This document shows positions 5,559-21,694 of a DNA stretch of 24,830 bases, in pieces (positions within the stretch are counted from its first letter, which is position 1; the number at the start of each line of letters is the position of its first letter). Made by a program: the position numbers and the translations under genes. Origin of the DNA: Nanobdellota archaeon. GTDB lineage: Archaea; Nanobdellota; Nanobdellia; Parvarchaeales; Parvarchaeaceae. The notes below the pieces were generated by a model. It had not been told where the DNA came from. It made no database searches and saw nothing but the letters and a program-made list of their open reading frames with translations. The DNA lies in NCBI GenBank assembly GCA_021818905.1, contig JAKASS010000013.1:1-24830 (forward strand), read 5' to 3'.

Positions 5559-6011
5559 CTACACTCCATCCTTTAATATCTTTCTGAGCGGATTGAGCGA
5601 GCAGACGCTCATCACTTCTTCCGAAGACACGGACTTGACGAACCTCGCCATCGCAATGGCGAATGCGAGCTGTTTCTTAAGATCGGCTTCGGCGTACTCG
5701 TGGACGGCTTTGACGTAGTGTCCTCCCATGGAGGACAGCGTCCTCCTTATCGTCTCTCTGGACACCGAGACTCCTTTTCTGTCAAGGTAAAACTGGAGGC
5801 TTTTCGTGTCCCACATCGTGACATCGTAGCCGTGCTTTGAAGAATCGTTCTCCTCTATCAGCTTCTTTATATCTTTCTTCTCCTTCTCTCCAAAGGATGG
5901 CGGCCTGCCTTCCTTGGACTTGTCCGACAGCGTCTTCTCGTGTTTCCACTGCATGATCCAGTCGTACACCGTAGAACGGTCGACCATGCAGAATCTGGCC
6001 GCCTCACATAA
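5559..6011 (-). pseudogene. IS630-type transposase, N-terminal HTH fragment
   Basis: From the ATG at 5987 a 142-residue frame encodes a helix-turn-helix (AARFCMVDRSTVYDWIMQWK, whose first part lies in the same frame before the ATG), then GRPPSF and a second winged-helix-like part (GVSVSRETIRRTLSSMGGHY). This order is that of IS630/Tc1-like transposases. The frame stays open upstream to 6032 without a start, so the gene has lost its first residues. Downstream, where the catalytic DDE domain should begin, the protein ends in an unrelated-looking tail (SLNPLRKILKDGV). Both ends are therefore missing and no transposition activity is expected. The 5' break lies next to the palindrome at 6021-6037. 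Confidence 0.68.
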
Positions 6012-11350: not shown

Positions 11351-11704
11351 GTGTTAGTCAGCGTTTTTGTTTGGTTCTTCTTGTTTTATCATGGATTTCT
11401 ATCGCCTAAGCATTTATCCGACACAGAATTTGACAGCTGGAAGAATCTCTTTCAAACTTCACATACAATGGCACAGTATCTGTCATCTTCAATACCGGCG
11501 AACCTCACTGCCGTAGTTTCATCGGTTTTAAGCGCACCACGTTTCTTCGCCAATCTCGTTGGCTCTTCATTTATAGAAGGGTTCAGGACCGTAACTTACA
11601 TCTCAACGGTTTTGCTTGTGCTTGCCGCGGCAGTGTCATTTTTAAGGAGTGGAGAGCGAAGACAGAAGTTGTTTAGTGATAAAAAACAAAGTAATAGTTT
11701 TTAA
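11351..11704 (+). pseudogene. C-terminal fragment of an MFS (DHA2-type) exporter
   Basis: The frame from a GTG at 11351 encodes 117 residues. It starts directly in a hydrophobic helix (VSVFVWFFLFYHGFL). A loop follows with SSSIPANLTAVVSSVLSAPR, then SSFIEGFRTVTYISTVLLVL and AAAVSFLRSGE. The S-S-S-x-P...F-x-x-G-F-R-x-x-x-Y-x-S pattern with a last helix and a short basic tail is that of the end of 14-helix drug/proton antiporters. The preceding 350 or so residues are absent; the frame continues open a little upstream, over the end of the previous gene, without resemblance. It is either a decayed remnant or a small orphan two-helix protein. No promoter was seen. Confidence 0.5.
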
Positions 11705-12405: not shown

Positions 12406-12732
12406 AGTTATTTCGGTGCTTTGACTAAAGCCTATATCAGAATAATGTTTGGAGGGGTTTATATAATTAATAAAATCCAGAGTTGCATTGTTTAAGCTAT
12501 TTATTAGAGTACCCTTCTATACATTCTTGCAACTTATCCTATGCAGGATACGGGGGTAAAATATGTGCGACAATGTGGGGTCCAGATAAGATATTACGAG
12601 CCAAAGGGTTGGAAGAGTTTGATTCTAGCATCTTTATATAGTCGTGCTCTTCATAAGGGATAGTGATTGGTTTAAAGTCTGTAACCGTTCTCGTGTCACA
12701 ACATAATACGGCAGACCAGATAGATTTTGATT
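12406..12732. other. Intergenic stretch with no convincing gene
   Basis: This AT-rich region separates divergent genes. It holds TATA-like sequences (about 12432-12438 and 12459-12466, leftward; 12702-12708, rightward). One 40-codon frame (12541-12663) begins ATG and reads YVRQCGVQIRYYEPKGW in its middle, but it has no partner motif, ribosome site or recognisable family. Confidence 0.35.
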
Positions 12733-13020
12733 ATGAAAGTTACGCATACTGAAGGAAAATTTTCTGCTAGTACGCCGAATGGCGAATCCGAATTGCTCTA
12801 CATAAATAGAGATAATACCGCTCTCAGGATTTATCGTACTTTCACGCCGGACAAAGACGAGGGAAATGGCGTCATCGAAAGTCTCACTATCGCCGCGTTT
12901 AATTTCGCCAGAAAAAGCAAGTTAAAGGTCAGGCCAGATTGTCCTGCCATAATAACGTTCTTAGAAAAACACAAGGAATTCGAAAAACTGCTTGTTGCAG
13001 ACAAGAGCGCTAGAAGCTGA
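12733..13020 (+). CDS. Small GNAT acetyltransferase (YjdJ/Acetyltransf_CG type)
   Basis: A 95-residue protein started at ATG 12733; a TTG six bases earlier is open but weaker, and a TATA-like element lies about 28 bases before the ATG. It follows the short single-domain GNAT family closely: an opening H-T-E-G-K-F, strands SELLYI and ALRIYRTFTPDKDEGNGVIE, then SLTIAAFNFARKSKLKVRPD, CPAIITFLEKH and a final KEFEKLL. The acetyl-CoA loop, usually R-G-R-G-I-A, reads EGNGVI, so cofactor binding could be weaker or altered. The substrate is unknown; these proteins are often assigned to stress or RNA/protein acetylation without proof. Confidence 0.82.
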   Translation: MKVTHTEGKFSASTPNGESELLYINRDNTALRIYRTFTPDKDEGNGVIESLTIAAFNFARKSKLKVRPDCPAIITFLEKHKEFEKLLVADKSARS

Positions 13021-13058: not shown

Positions 13059-13658
13059 ATGACTCTTAAAGAAATCCTTGGGATAAAAGAAACCGGCGAA
13101 GAAAGATTGAATCGATTGAGCAAACGCCTGAATAAATACATTCTCCAAGCCAAGCGCTATGCTTGGAGCAATTATTCTGGAAAGCACAAAATTGAAGGCC
13201 ACGGTATCGAGCCGAAGGTTGATGAATTCTATTATTTGCTGGAAAAGAGACTTGACAGAGGGCACGAATACAAGGACCTCAGGGAAGACGATATAGTCTA
13301 CTTATTGGAGAATGCCAAGGGGGCATCTGAAAGGCACGACTGGTATTTGGGTGCTACTTACATCAGCGACGTTACACTAGCTCTGCTCAACGTTAACGCC
13401 AGAGATAGATTGTATTTTACGAAGGAGTCACTGCAAAAATTATCCAACGATAAACACTTAGGATTCGCGCCACACTTTTTAAAGCATGGTAAATGGATAT
13501 ACCAAGAAAACACCGGCTCTGAATTACAGGTTGTGGATAAATATTATCGCGAAGAAAATTTCTATGGGGAAATGAGACTTGATAATTTTTTCCCAGATTT
13601 TGGAAGATGGGTAACCCCCAGCAACCCGATTTATAAGGGGTATGTCAGACGGAGCTAG
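13059..13658 (+). CDS. Hypothetical soluble protein, 199 residues
   Basis: Not recognised. It begins with a helical, Lys/Arg-rich region (LKEILGIKETGEERLNRL, then SKRLNKYILQAKRYAW). More helices follow (VDEFYYLLEKRLDRG, DIVYLLENAKGASERHDWYL) and a C-terminal part rich in aromatic residues (YREENFYGEMRLDNFFPDF, GRWVTPSNP). The single-residue pattern shows no membrane segment, signal peptide, P-loop or Cys pair. Its codon use and leaderless promoter match the neighbouring genes, and the frame is intact, so I take it as a real gene. His/Asp/Trp in GASERHDWYLGATYISDV form the only stretch that looks conserved-like. Lineage-specific protein is likely. Confidence 0.6.
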   Translation: MTLKEILGIKETGEERLNRLSKRLNKYILQAKRYAWSNYSGKHKIEGHGIEPKVDEFYYLLEKRLDRGHEYKDLREDDIVYLLENAKGASERHDWYLGATYISDVTLALLNVNARDRLYFTKESLQKLSNDKHLGFAPHFLKHGKWIYQENTGSELQVVDKYYREENFYGEMRLDNFFPDFGRWVTPSNPIYKGYVRRS

Positions 13659-13713
13659 GCTTATTTAAGGGACTTATGCACACGCGTATAAATCATAAAC
13701 ACCTATAAAAATA

Positions 13714-14952
13714 ATGATGGGTGCTGTAACCGAAACTTTTTTAATAGCAGCTTTTATAATATTGCTCGGTTTCGCGGGCAACGAGATCTTCGAGAGAAAA
13801 GGGCTGCCACCTTATCTTTTTCTTATAGCTGCAGGCATAGTGTTGGGTCCAGTTTTAGGGATTATCAACGGAGTTTCACTTTTACCTATACTTGGTATCG
13901 TCGCTGAGCTTACGCTTATGATGGTCCTGTTGTACAGCGGCTTTGACATAAATATATTTAAGGAGGAAGGCATAAGCCTTAGAACAACACTTCAGGTACT
14001 CCTGTATGTATCATTAAGCATTATAATTATAACTGCGGCCTTTAAATTTATTTTGGGATGGACGTTTTTAGAAGCGTTAATTTTGGGTTCTATAGTTGGC
14101 GGTGAAACTACTGCGGTAGTCATAGTATCTTTGTCCAAGTCATTAAAAATTGGAAAAGACCCGACGACTTTTATAAGATTGGAATCGGCTTTAAACTCCG
14201 TATTACTAGTGGTGCTTTTTCTTACTTTCACATCCGTAAACAGCGTGGGAGGAATAGATTTAACTACTGTAATATACCGCATATTTTCGGAATTTTCCGT
14301 TGCAATAGTAATTGGGGTAATACTTTCTCTATTATGGCTTTTCATTTTGAATAAAGTGAAGGAAAGACCATATAATTATGTCCTTACGTTAGGTTTTGCT
14401 CTTCTAACGTTTGCAATAACCGATTTAGTCGGCGGTAATCCTTTGCTCGCCGTGCTTTCTTTTGGTATAATCCTAGGAAACGGTAAAACGGTGGCCAAGC
14501 TCTTTAATCAGAATTTTGATCCAAAAATTAAAACACATTTAAACATGTTCCAAACTGAATTTAATTTTATTTTAGTTACGTTTTTCTTTGTATTCTTAGG
14601 CCTTATTCTGGTGCTTTCCTGGCAGAATGTGATAGAGGGCGCAGGAATGGCCGCGCTTATAATTGTAATATTATTGGCAGCCAGATATTTGTCATTAGCT
14701 ATCTCGACTTATAAGGCAAAGATAGCAAAATATAGGCCCCTTTTCCTTGTCATGTGCGCACAAGGAGTCACTCCCGCAACGCTTGCAGTATTAGCATTCA
14801 CAGAGGGCCTGCCGATGTCAGTGTTGTACCTTAATATTGTCACTTATGTAATAATTTTCACGAACGTTATAACGACTATCGGTGTTTTCGTTTTGGTAAG
14901 ACGAGGCAGCATTTCTACAAAGATGAGCACACAAGGACAATCGAATACGTGA
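13714..14952 (+). CDS. Cation/proton antiporter, CPA (NhaP/KefB-like) family
   Basis: A 412-residue protein with about 12 membrane helices. It follows the CPA1/CPA2 fold: FAGNEIFERKGLPPYLFLIA (start of the first helical repeat), GIVLGPVLG, ELTLMMVLLYSGFDIN, then GSIVGGETTAVVIVSL (126-140), LESALNSVLLVVLFL (156-170) and PLLAVLSFGIILGNG. It would exchange Na+ or K+ for protons across the membrane. The ion-binding places usually carry T-D or N-D pairs; here the first reads GGETTAVV and the second ESALNS, so the conventional Asp residues are absent, with Glu131 and Glu157 nearby. Coupling may therefore be unusual. Two ATGs (13714, 13717) compete; TATAAATC at 13687-13694 fits either. Confidence 0.87.
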   Translation: MMGAVTETFLIAAFIILLGFAGNEIFERKGLPPYLFLIAAGIVLGPVLGIINGVSLLPILGIVAELTLMMVLLYSGFDINIFKEEGISLRTTLQVLLYVSLSIIIITAAFKFILGWTFLEALILGSIVGGETTAVVIVSLSKSLKIGKDPTTFIRLESALNSVLLVVLFLTFTSVNSVGGIDLTTVIYRIFSEFSVAIVIGVILSLLWLFILNKVKERPYNYVLTLGFALLTFAITDLVGGNPLLAVLSFGIILGNGKTVAKLFNQNFDPKIKTHLNMFQTEFNFILVTFFFVFLGLILVLSWQNVIEGAGMAALIIVILLAARYLSLAISTYKAKIAKYRPLFLVMCAQGVTPATLAVLAFTEGLPMSVLYLNIVTYVIIFTNVITTIGVFVLVRRGSISTKMSTQGQSNT

Positions 14953-15040: not shown

Positions 15041-15997
15041 CTAAAAGCAGTAAACACGTAAAATATCCTGAAATAGCTTGGCTATACAAAAATGAATCAA
15101 AATGCGCTTCGATAGTAAGTAAAGGGCACTGTTACTAAATACGGTTGATATATAAGCCAAATAAAAAGAGAGCGAAGCTCTCTCGACCCATCGTTCCCAC
15201 CGTCCGAACCAATCATCGTCTTCGTGATACTTTACAAGTCCCGCTTCTTCGGCGGGGGTCCTGCCGAGGGAAGAATGCGGCCTTATGAAGTCATAGTAGA
15301 ACGTCCATAATCTTACGAACAAGTCTCCAGTGGCGAGCTTCTTGAAGCCGCGAAGCTCGTGAGTATTGGCACGATAGGGATCGTCCCGTCTTTCCATGGG
15401 ATCATTGTCCTTCTTGTCCTCGAAGGAAGCGCAGCGGTGATAGTGGCGGTGGTAATACCACAAGCCTTTTAAGTCTTTTATTATGGATCCGTATCCGAAG
15501 GCTCCGTCCGTGGTGATGTTCATGGCTGGCGGGGACTCCTTCATCAGCAGTCTGGCGTTCTTCTTCGTCCTGTCGGAAGCGAGAAAAGCCGTGGCAAATC
15601 TGTTCTCCCTGCAGATGGAAGCCCATACGTAAAAGGACTTCCCGCGCATCTTTACGGACATCTCGTCCATGTGAAGCCTTTCCGCCCTGAAAGGCTTCAT
15701 GTCCTTTACGTATCCTATGATCATCTTTCCGTATTCCAGGAACCACCTGAATACGGAATCAACGGACACGGAAAGGAACTTCGCGGCTTCCCTAAGCGAC
15801 GATCCTATCAGATGGAGGTGAATACTGCCGATCATGGTGCGTTTCGCATGGTGTTTCTACCTGAAACCGCCGTTTTCCACGAACGTCTTACCGCAGGACA
15901 TACAGCGGTATCTCTGTACGTTTCCCCTCCTTTTTGTCTTTCTAAAGCCATTTAAATCCACACTGCTGCTTTTACAATAATTACATCGGTTTTCCAT
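15041..15997 (-). pseudogene. IS6-like transposase with in-frame amber codon and no stop inside the IS
   Basis: From ATG 15997 the frame encodes a zinc ribbon (CNYCKSSSVDLNGF, then RYRCMSCGKTF), as in several archaeal IS6/IS1-like transposases. It meets TAG at 15857-15859 (codon 47) and continues in the same frame. An ATG at 15835 could start the remaining 264 residues: an HTH (SLREAAKFLSVSVDSVFRWF) and the DDE core, HMDEMSVKMRGKSFYVWA with the first Asp, TTDGAFGY with the second, and Glu within THELRGFKK before FIRPHSSLGRTPAEE. The stop, at 15041-15043, lies 82 bases beyond the IS end, so the tail (after about TVFSNSA) is read from host DNA. Without the zinc ribbon the product is probably inactive or less active. 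Confidence 0.72.
15117..15124. repeat. Target-site duplication, left copy (AAGTAAAG)
   Basis: Eight bases directly outside the left inverted repeat of the IS. They are repeated exactly at 16066-16073 outside the right end, as expected for an 8-bp duplication on insertion. Confidence 0.85.
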
Positions 15998-16065
15998 TTT
16001 TTACCTTAAATAAAGATGGCAGCCGATGTAATTAACATTCACCAACCGTATTTGGTAACAGTGCC
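15125..16065 (-). mobile_element. Complete IS6-like insertion sequence, 941 bp
   Basis: The ends are 23-base inverted repeats (15125-15147 and 16043-16065) that begin GGCACTGTTA and differ at one position (15136 versus 16054). Both ends are flanked by the same 8 bases AAGTAAAG, which fits the 8-bp target duplication of the IS6 family. One transposase gene fills the element on the minus strand, with an amber codon near its start. The exact duplication and near-identical ends mean the insertion is recent on a mutational time scale. It has inserted just upstream of, or inside, the gene at 16016 and separates it from a strong TATA-like sequence at 15015-15024. The family is inferred from the transposase motifs and duplication length. 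Confidence 0.85.
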
Positions 16066-16894
16066 AAGTAAAGAGGCAGGCAATACGACGGCAGCAAAAG
16101 CAAAAATGCCGCAGTCGGATCTTAAGAGTGGCGGCAAGAAAGCGGCCGCATTCGGCGCTTCGGCCGTTGGCTTGGGAGCTTATGATGCCTTACACCCGAC
16201 GAGCTGGAACTCTTATTTCACAAAGGCGGGGCAGTGGCTTGGAAAATACATGCCAAAGGTCCTGCAGTTCCTTTTGCCCATACCTACCCAGCTTTATCAA
16301 GTTGCACTTATAGGCGGCAGTGTCGGGGCCAGCGCAGGGATACTATACAATAAAAACTGGTCAAAAAAGAGAAACCTCTCAAATCTAATGACGGTCTCGA
16401 CGAACGCCGTCGCAGCGGATTATGCTTCTGCGACTATAGCTGCAAAGAGACCCCCGTATCCACTACCGAAAGCAGATTACGGCTGGAGGATACCCGCCTT
16501 TAAACATACTATATGGGGTGGATTAGCACAATTGATAAATTCGCCTTCGTTTATACCAGGAATTTTAACCGGCTATGTTTTGGGTATGGCTTCGTTGGGA
16601 GCATACTTTGCAGTCCAGGGAGGTTATCTCCTGTACAAAAACTACGCGAAAGTAAAAGCCTGGGCAAAGAAAACCGGCGCACGCATCTACGACAGCATGG
16701 ATAGATTTGCAACTTCGCTTAAAGATAAAGCGGTAGGGGGTTACACACACCTAACTAGTAAATTGAAAAACGGGTATATGCATGTAGCCGAAAGACTAAA
16801 AGGCTTTGCGCATAGAATAATCTCTGAAATGCCTTCGCTTAATCCTATTCCAGTAAGCGCGAAAGGCAACAGTCTTTTGTTAAACTCAGGATAA
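16016..16894 (+). CDS. Multi-pass membrane protein of unknown function; 5' end supplied by the IS
   Basis: A 292-residue frame. Its first 50 bases (16016-16065) are the right end of the insertion sequence, so residues 1-17 (MAADVINIHQPYLVTVP) are not original. An internal ATG at 16106 (residue 31) is the first start outside the IS, giving a 262-residue protein. Hydrophobic segments lie at about 43-60 (AAAFGASAVGLGAYDALHP), 88-115 (VLQFLLPIPTQLYQVALIGG and on) and 177-210 (FIPGILTGYVLGMASLGAYF). They are followed by a basic amphipathic C-terminal region (KVKAWAKKTGARIYDSMDRF). No family is recognised. A good TATA-like sequence (15015-15024) lies on the far side of the IS, so the gene may have been cut off from its promoter. 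Confidence 0.6.
   Translation: MAADVINIHQPYLVTVPSKEAGNTTAAKAKMPQSDLKSGGKKAAAFGASAVGLGAYDALHPTSWNSYFTKAGQWLGKYMPKVLQFLLPIPTQLYQVALIGGSVGASAGILYNKNWSKKRNLSNLMTVSTNAVAADYASATIAAKRPPYPLPKADYGWRIPAFKHTIWGGLAQLINSPSFIPGILTGYVLGMASLGAYFAVQGGYLLYKNYAKVKAWAKKTGARIYDSMDRFATSLKDKAVGGYTHLTSKLKNGYMHVAERLKGFAHRIISEMPSLNPIPVSAKGNSLLLNSG
16066..16073. repeat. Target-site duplication, right copy (AAGTAAAG)
   Basis: Exact match to 15117-15124, immediately outside the right inverted repeat. It falls at codons 17-20 of the open frame that starts at 16016. Confidence 0.85.
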
Positions 16895-20128: not shown

Positions 20129-21694
20129 TTATTCTTTTATGACTTGTCCATGTACCGCTTCTAACAACAGGACGCGAACCTTGTTTCCATGCCTTAGCCT
20201 GACTTCATATGCCGGTATGAGGACGCGTTTGCATTCAAAAAGAACGCTCGACGGAAATATCGCTTTTATCCAGTCCTTCTCTATGCGTTCGTCTACACGT
20301 GTATTAAGTATAGAAGAGGGGTCCGCATCTACCGCTACAGTTATCGGTTTATCCTGCATTAAATATTTATTATAGCTTATAAGGGAAGCCTCTTTGCCTT
20401 TTGATACCGCTAGTTTTCGCAGTTTTAATCGACTTATGGAATTATGCACAGCTCTTGTCCCCATGCCGAGTTCCCTGCTTATATCATCGACATCCTTCTT
20501 GTGACTTTTGGATAAAGAGGAAAGGACATCGTAGTCTTCGGGCAATAGTTTGCTTTCTCCGATTATAGGTCCCTGGAAGAACGATAATTTGTCATCTAGC
20601 AAGACGAATCGTGACTTGTCATCCAATATCAAATATCCTTCGGTGTATTCGTTTTTATGCTTACTAGGTAACCTGACGCCCGCCAATACAACACTTATGA
20701 ATTTCTTGTTAACGCCGTCTATGGACTCGATCTTTTTACCGAATAGAACGAATTCCTTCTTTTCGTTGCTGAATGCATATCGTCTTATGTACTCTTCGTC
20801 TATTTTTGACTGCAGTGAATATGCGTTAATTAGTTTCTGTTTTGTATTCGTACCTACAAGAGTTACATTGCCTGTCTCCTGCTTCAATTCACTTATTACA
20901 TTTACGAGCTTTTCGCCTGCAACAGTGGGCTTGAGCGAGGGTGTTGCGCCGGCGTGTTCGGTCAGCATTCGCTTTACCTGGACGGCGCTGCTGATTCCTA
21001 ACCCAAAAGAAGAAAATTCTCCAGGGTTATGCGTCGCTATCCTCCTAAGAGCAGCTCTCGAAAAAAATATACTAACGGCATTCATGTCGTTCTCTACGGT
21101 CAGTTTCCCGATAAACCCATATCCGCACTGGGAAAGCACATTTTTGCTTACATTTGCGGGCCTCTGCGAGACGACCAATAGTCCTATCCCTCTCTTGCGT
21201 CCCCTTACTGCTAATTCTTCTATTATTCCTGCCGTGCGGTGCGTCTGTGGCGCGAACTTGTCAGCTTCCTCTACTACTACCAGATACGGCATTTCAAGTT
21301 CTTCTTCAACTAAATACAATTCGGACAGTGCCTTGTTCAGTACCTCATCCTTTTGCATGCTTTCTGATAAATCTAGTATTACTGGCAAATTATTTTGTAT
21401 GCTGCTCTTGAATAACGCATGAAAGTCTATTTCAAGTCCCAAATCACCTTTATTGCCGCCTACAATAATGACCTGAAAGGCGCTTCTCAAAGGATAATAT
21501 TCTCCTTCCGGATCCACAACGCAAAAAGAAAATTTTAACTTACAAAGTTCTTCTAGGAGTACCCCCACTAGATAAGACTTACCGGACCCGCTTTGTCCGA
21601 TAATGCAGCCTCTGCCGGTCATTATATCTTGTGCGGAGAGATTTACATTTTTAGAGAGGTTAATAACGGCACTGCTCATAATAACGATTTGCAT
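20129..21694 (-). CDS. HerA/DUF87-type ATPase with C-terminal helix-turn-helix
   Basis: A 521-residue P-loop ATPase of the HerA-FtsK class. Walker A is GQSGSGKS (33-40); VVDPEGEYYPLR (about 57-68) is the HerA D-P-x-G-E-Y/D signature; Walker B is YLVVVEEADKFAP (about 136-148); LLVVSQRPANVSK is sensor-like, and SRAALRRIATHNPGEF follows. Residues about 390-450 (KKDVDDISRELGMGTRAVHN, then SISRLKLRKLAV) look like a winged HTH. HerA motors form hexamers that translocate DNA, with NurA in repair, or as packaging or defence ATPases. No NurA gene is adjacent. The likely start is the second ATG (21679): the TATA-like TTAAATAC at 21703-21710 is 27 bases before it but only 12 from the first ATG. The start is separated by about 50 bases from the GH15 gene. 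Confidence 0.85.
   Translation of the reverse strand: MQIVIMSSAVINLSKNVNLSAQDIMTGRGCIIGQSGSGKSYLVGVLLEELCKLKFSFCVVDPEGEYYPLRSAFQVIIVGGNKGDLGLEIDFHALFKSSIQNNLPVILDLSESMQKDEVLNKALSELYLVEEELEMPYLVVVEEADKFAPQTHRTAGIIEELAVRGRKRGIGLLVVSQRPANVSKNVLSQCGYGFIGKLTVENDMNAVSIFFSRAALRRIATHNPGEFSSFGLGISSAVQVKRMLTEHAGATPSLKPTVAGEKLVNVISELKQETGNVTLVGTNTKQKLINAYSLQSKIDEEYIRRYAFSNEKKEFVLFGKKIESIDGVNKKFISVVLAGVRLPSKHKNEYTEGYLILDDKSRFVLLDDKLSFFQGPIIGESKLLPEDYDVLSSLSKSHKKDVDDISRELGMGTRAVHNSISRLKLRKLAVSKGKEASLISYNKYLMQDKPITVAVDADPSSILNTRVDERIEKDWIKAIFPSSVLFECKRVLIPAYEVRLRHGNKVRVLLLEAVHGQVIKE

Follow-up and report, generated by a model that had tools for sequence, protein, structure and literature searches.

A young IS6-like insertion near the 5' end of an uncharacterised gene in a Nanobdellota archaeon

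Affinities of the element

Promoters at the ends of insertion sequences are well described in the bacterial IS6 family (PMC7986276, PMC6807381). Elements of the IS6/IS26 family generate 8-bp target duplications, have ends that start with GGCACTGTT, with G at positions 1, 2 and 7, and encode a transposase with the DDE_Tnp_IS240 domain, usually within 700-890 bp. Long IS6-like elements are known from clostridia (clades h and i of Varani et al.; VII and VIII of Harmer and Hall), in which a zinc finger precedes the HTH and DDE domains; they are 1.2-1.8 kb in length, with a 90-residue extension, and rarely start with GG (PMC6807381). In another family, transposases without a stop codon have been described for IS481 elements such as ISRme5, where the transposase frame ends in host DNA and the tail differs from copy to copy (PMC4803752).

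The window, that is, the whole stretch of 24,830 nucleotides analysed here, belongs to an archaeal genome of 945 kb in 25 contigs, and contains an element that shares features with all three of these systems. Its main parts are as follows.

15125-16065, minus strand: insertion sequence (IS) of 941 bp, one of nine full copies in the genome, with pairwise identity of about 91-99%
15125-15147: left terminal inverted repeat, 23 bp, on the transposase 3' side
16043-16065: right terminal inverted repeat, on the transposase 5' side, matching the left repeat at 22 of 23 positions
15117-15124: left copy of the target-site duplication, AAGTAAAG, read directly from the sequence; the single-copy equivalent in the congeneric genome G028 is AAGCAAAG
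16066-16073: right copy of the target-site duplication, AAGTAAAG, read in the same way and an exact 8-bp copy of the left one
15125-15997, minus strand: transposase frame, with a zinc-binding N-terminus followed by the DDE_Tnp_IS240 domain and TAG at codon 47; the frame runs on to 15041 in host DNA

The initial annotation read this region as a recent IS insertion with matching ends and an 8-bp duplication. Both the match of the repeats and the exactness of the duplication are confirmed and, together with the few private changes of this copy (see below), they support that reading. The ends begin with GG and have G at position 7, in a cTGTt core (GGCACTGTTACC), in agreement with the IS6/IS26 consensus (PMC7986276, PMC6807381), and the 8-bp target duplication of the window copy is also that of IS6/IS26. 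The transposase matches PF13610 (DDE_Tnp_IS240) at 38.5-39.6 bits, above the cut-off of 27. The best of all models is NF033587 (transpos_IS6), whose 69.8 bits do not reach the curated cut-off of 125, and therefore the element is termed IS6-like here, rather than a certified member of IS6. Its IS1/IS1595-type zinc-binding N-terminus, of about 40 residues, is additional to the DDE_Tnp_IS240 domain. The sole model passed on the IS1 side is that of this N-terminal domain (NF050000, 31.4 versus a cut-off of 28), whereas the IS1 family model NF033558 gives 50.8 bits against a cut-off of 100. Thus, the element differs from typical IS6/IS26 members in its model score, the extra N-terminus, its length of 941 bp and its 23-bp ends; the order of its domains is like that of the long clostridial elements, from which its length and its host, archaeal to judge from its TATA and leaderless promoters, set it apart.

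Close relatives of the element are nearly limited to the source genome. Among the 32 family genomes, only G017 has close fragments, whose end region is 87% identical over 142 bp. Transposase matches at E-values of 1e-20 or lower occur in 41 of the 371 phylum genomes sampled, the source genome included, and the others are distant; a scripted search around these distant transposases found no clear end repeats with target duplications. When genome contigs were searched for named IS relatives, one 30% partial match was obtained, in a Chitinophagales bin, and a search of viral contigs gave no match, so that no close named relative of the IS is present in these two collections.

The transposase frame, the copies and their age

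The transposase frame starts at 15997 on the minus strand and has 291 codons within the IS. The frame reported initially (15041-15835) is a real reading frame, but it covers only the C-terminal part: the TAG at codon 47 splits the frame, and consequently only the part from 15835 was visible in the list of open reading frames. The other eight copies all have TGG at this codon, and with this in-frame nonsense the transposase of the window copy is broken. Two other copies have TGA at codon 85. Since three copies thus show TGG changed to a stop, recoding of TAG and TGA as tryptophan was considered; it was set aside, as the stops lie at different codons, the copies are otherwise intact and the changes resemble plain G-to-A changes.

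It had also been noted that the transposase frame has no stop inside the element and borrows its tail from host DNA. This is borne out, with 27 host codons used here; however, the property is not peculiar to the window insertion, being common to all nine copies, in each of which the frame runs 1 to about 60 codons into host DNA before it stops. In the related fragment of G017, there is one extra T before the end repeat, and the frame stops at a TAA inside the repeat (TTTGGTAACAG). Consequently, the loss of the stop in the window lineage looks secondary, and judging from this fragment, the lineage may have lost one base near the 3' end, which would have shifted the transposase frame past the old stop. 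Given the IS481 precedent, the absence of a transposase stop is not new in kind, although the transposase family is a different one and the loss appears secondary here. Next to this end lies a further feature, which is also seen in the other IS copies inspected.

15166-15184, minus strand: terminator-like hairpin with a downstream T run, located just before the left IS end on the 3' side of the transposase, called from consensus match and fold

Compared with the eight other full copies, the window copy has only three private changes in 941 bp, one of them being the nonsense, which indicates that the window insertion is young. The intact target duplication is consistent with this, and the age given by private changes is approximate, as the copies are mosaics of one another, through recombination or assembly. 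Several fragments of the IS are present in the genome as well. Among the other full copies, the target duplication is exact at L006 and L009 and near-exact at L003, and the remaining five (L002, L004, L005, L007 and L008) are without it, which replicative transposition, recombination among the copies or joins made during assembly would lead one to expect.

Some further observations concern mobile sequences in this genome. By eye, the host ORFs adjoining L003, L005 and L009 resemble other transposases. Two 131-bp fragments of the IS (IS positions 810-941; L010:1501-1631 and L011:1501-1631) share their internal end base beside a TGTGCAT motif, which suggests either that one truncation gave rise to both or that they represent a small derived element. 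The sequence TGTGCATAACTCGA is repeated across the source genome (G000), with 23 sites at up to 2 mismatches and 0 in the reversed control, and is rare in other family genomes; it adjoins several IS copies (L006, L007, L010 and L011) and could mark one end of a different mobile element. Within the window, it occurs as TGTGCATAA at 13674-13682 and 20442-20450 (minus strand). In addition, an ORF at 5559-5987 of the window (minus strand) has HTH_32 and HTH_33 domains and may be what is left of another type of transposase.

The interrupted host gene

Two parts of the host gene are recognised, one on each side of the IS.

16067-16894, plus strand: remaining host gene, 275 native codons plus stop, orthologous to genes of G028 (81%) and G029 (71%)
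15092-15124, plus strand: orphaned native 5' end, with the likely native ATG at 15092, out of frame with the gene

In a DNA search, the orthologs in the congeneric genomes G028 and G029 have no IS. If position 15124 is joined to 16074, the resulting sequence aligns with G028 continuously over about 95 bp, with one target copy, and the 8 nt just before the target match G028 exactly, such a match occurring once in 24,822 window positions. The initial annotation had looked to relatives free of the IS for a possible refutation of its reading; the two orthologs show a single target copy and a native 5' end different from that of the window gene, and the reading stands. The native proteins start with MTTKEKLESIVSKEAG in G028 and MVAANTMESILSKDAS in G029, the insertion falling at the codons for SK. 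The IS therefore sits inside the coding region, about 9-10 codons after the native start, and the suggestion that the gene has been cut from its own start and promoter is supported. An N-terminal motif, [LIM][EQD]x[ILV][LIV], is kept in 13 of the 13 homologs examined and is lost from the window protein. The product has no sequence match in Pfam, NCBIfam or PDB, and the gene has no plasmid match. The gene order differs in contig C19 of G028 (L096:1-560), where relatives of the window ORFs 11351-11704, 12727-13020 and 13059-13658 directly precede the ortholog; the Na+/H+ exchanger of the window (13714-14952) has no match on that contig.

The reading that we consider very probable is that a young IS6-like insertion decapitated this uncharacterised gene, leaving its 275 codons intact, so that any expression would go through a start at the junction, and the gene either has an altered product or is being lost. 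The element has recently transposed into host coding sequence and created the 8-bp target duplication; the promoter and start codon of the native gene, together with its conserved N-terminal motif, are now across the IS from the remaining codons, which are intact. Expression would then require ATG16016 in the IS, GTG16061 at the IS end or the internal ATG16106, and the most likely outcome would be either a product that is truncated or has an altered N-terminus, or the eventual loss of the gene. The decapitation of a gene by an IS is an ordinary type of event.

The gene may, on the other hand, be dead already, inactivated by the insertion or by an earlier 5' frameshift, with the open frame surviving only because the event is young; we put this at somewhat short of an even chance. 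The native start, the promoter and the motif conserved in all homologs examined are gone, the insertion is young, and the orphaned 5' piece is frameshifted, with one base missing in its alignment to the G028 ortholog. The frameshift could be older than the insertion, and the IS would then have struck a gene that was damaged before; or the single-base gap could be an assembly error of the draft genome. The gene also looks dispensable, since the search of 32 family genomes, many of them incomplete, gave no homolog in 23. However, the 275 codons are intact, and the codons changed only in the window lineage, as judged against G028 and the outgroup G029, show 20 synonymous changes and a single nonsynonymous one, an excess indicating that the gene was constrained until recently; nearly all of the constrained period predates the insertion. 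Over the first 100 codons, the synonymous divergence to G028 (window 16067-16894 versus L015) is about 0.1-0.2, and in the last third of the gene it exceeds 1. This gradient suggests recombination with a relative, which blurs the selection tests.

Candidate starts and predicted outward promoters

For the decapitated gene, the following features of the IS bear on a start at the junction.

16016-16065, plus strand: outward frame of 17 codons, MAADVINIHQPYLVTV(P), found in each of the nine copies; only here is it fused in frame to a host gene
16004-16012, plus strand: outward TATA-like box, CCTTAAATA, 7.5 bits, with a predicted RNA start near 16034
15149-15157, minus strand: outward TATA-like box, GCTTATATA, of 7.1 bits, from which RNA is predicted to start at the left IS edge, near 15128

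The promoter model was built from 143 genes of 220 or more codons, drawn from the window together with 240 kb of sequence from the source genome. Real starts have T at -1 in 65% of cases and TATA hexamers concentrated at -29 to -27; that is, the source genome shows leaderless archaeal transcription, with TATA near -30. As initially described, an open frame begins in the IS (plus strand, 16016-16894, 292 aa), with its first 16 codons plus 2 nt derived from the element. It had been proposed that the IS either cut the gene from its promoter or made a new N-terminus. The first part holds, in that the gene is separated from its start and promoter, but the second did not find support, the ATG in the IS having a poor start signature.

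If ATG16016 were used, the gene would have gained a new N-terminus, in which MAADVINIHQPYLVTV(P) replaces the native first residues. The frame is open without a stop from this codon to 16894, and the native start is out of frame; nevertheless, we regard such use as unlikely. ATG16016 falls at the 54th percentile of all ATGs and outscores only 16% of real starts; it has G at -1 and lacks a TATA box at the usual distance, the only strong outward box predicting an RNA that begins downstream of it. Moreover, the same 17-codon frame occurs in all nine copies and is elsewhere unfused.

The box CCTTAAATA is the strongest on the plus strand of the IS and is at or above the 90th percentile of the best boxes at real starts, the background for boxes of similar score being near 0.2-0.5 per kb. 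Shuffles of each AT-rich 90-bp end reach the scores of the two outward boxes in 1-2% of cases (2% for the right end). Since the RNA is predicted to start near 16034, downstream of ATG16016, this box would favour GTG16061 or ATG16106. In the joined empty site, the part of the gene frame that lies between ATG16106 and the TAG upstream of it contains no ATG, GTG or TTG. It is tentatively conceivable, at less than an even chance and below that of the dead gene, that the IS drives the gene in this way, with a slightly shorter protein translated from one of these two codons. The score and position of the box argue for it, as does the leaderless score of GTG16061, which is moderate (87th percentile of random ATGs), and promoters at IS ends are well described in bacterial IS6 elements (PMC7986276). 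The bacterial hybrid promoters, however, use -35/-10 boxes and offer an analogy only; ATG16106 has a poor leaderless score, and both of these predicted starts are without T at -1 or a clear ribosome site. The IS may donate a start to the decapitated gene, its outward TATA box then being a likelier route than its ATG.

Should the outward TATA boxes be functional, archaea would have a counterpart of the promoter donation seen in bacterial IS6 elements, and the locus would be a dated example of how a gene loses its start and perhaps recovers one. In its present state the allele, a clean and young insertion in an archaeon with a small genome, is of use for annotation: 16016 should not be taken as the gene start without evidence, and the transposase should be entered as a broken copy that begins at 15997.

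With outward TATA boxes at both ends and an ATG frame at the right end, the IS lineage might even be a portable start module that re-starts decapitated genes, the window gene being the first example of an IS-derived start in use; we hold this to be very improbable. The mini-frame reads MAADVI(N/K)IHQPYLVTVP in every copy, except that one copy has MAAG and another YLGTVP. Random insertion yields a fusion of 200 or more codons at 2-8% of positions, and with nine copies in the genome, one long fusion is unsurprising and no purpose need be invoked. Judging from this rate, the in-frame fusion of the host gene to the 17-codon frame is probably a chance coincidence of reading frames.
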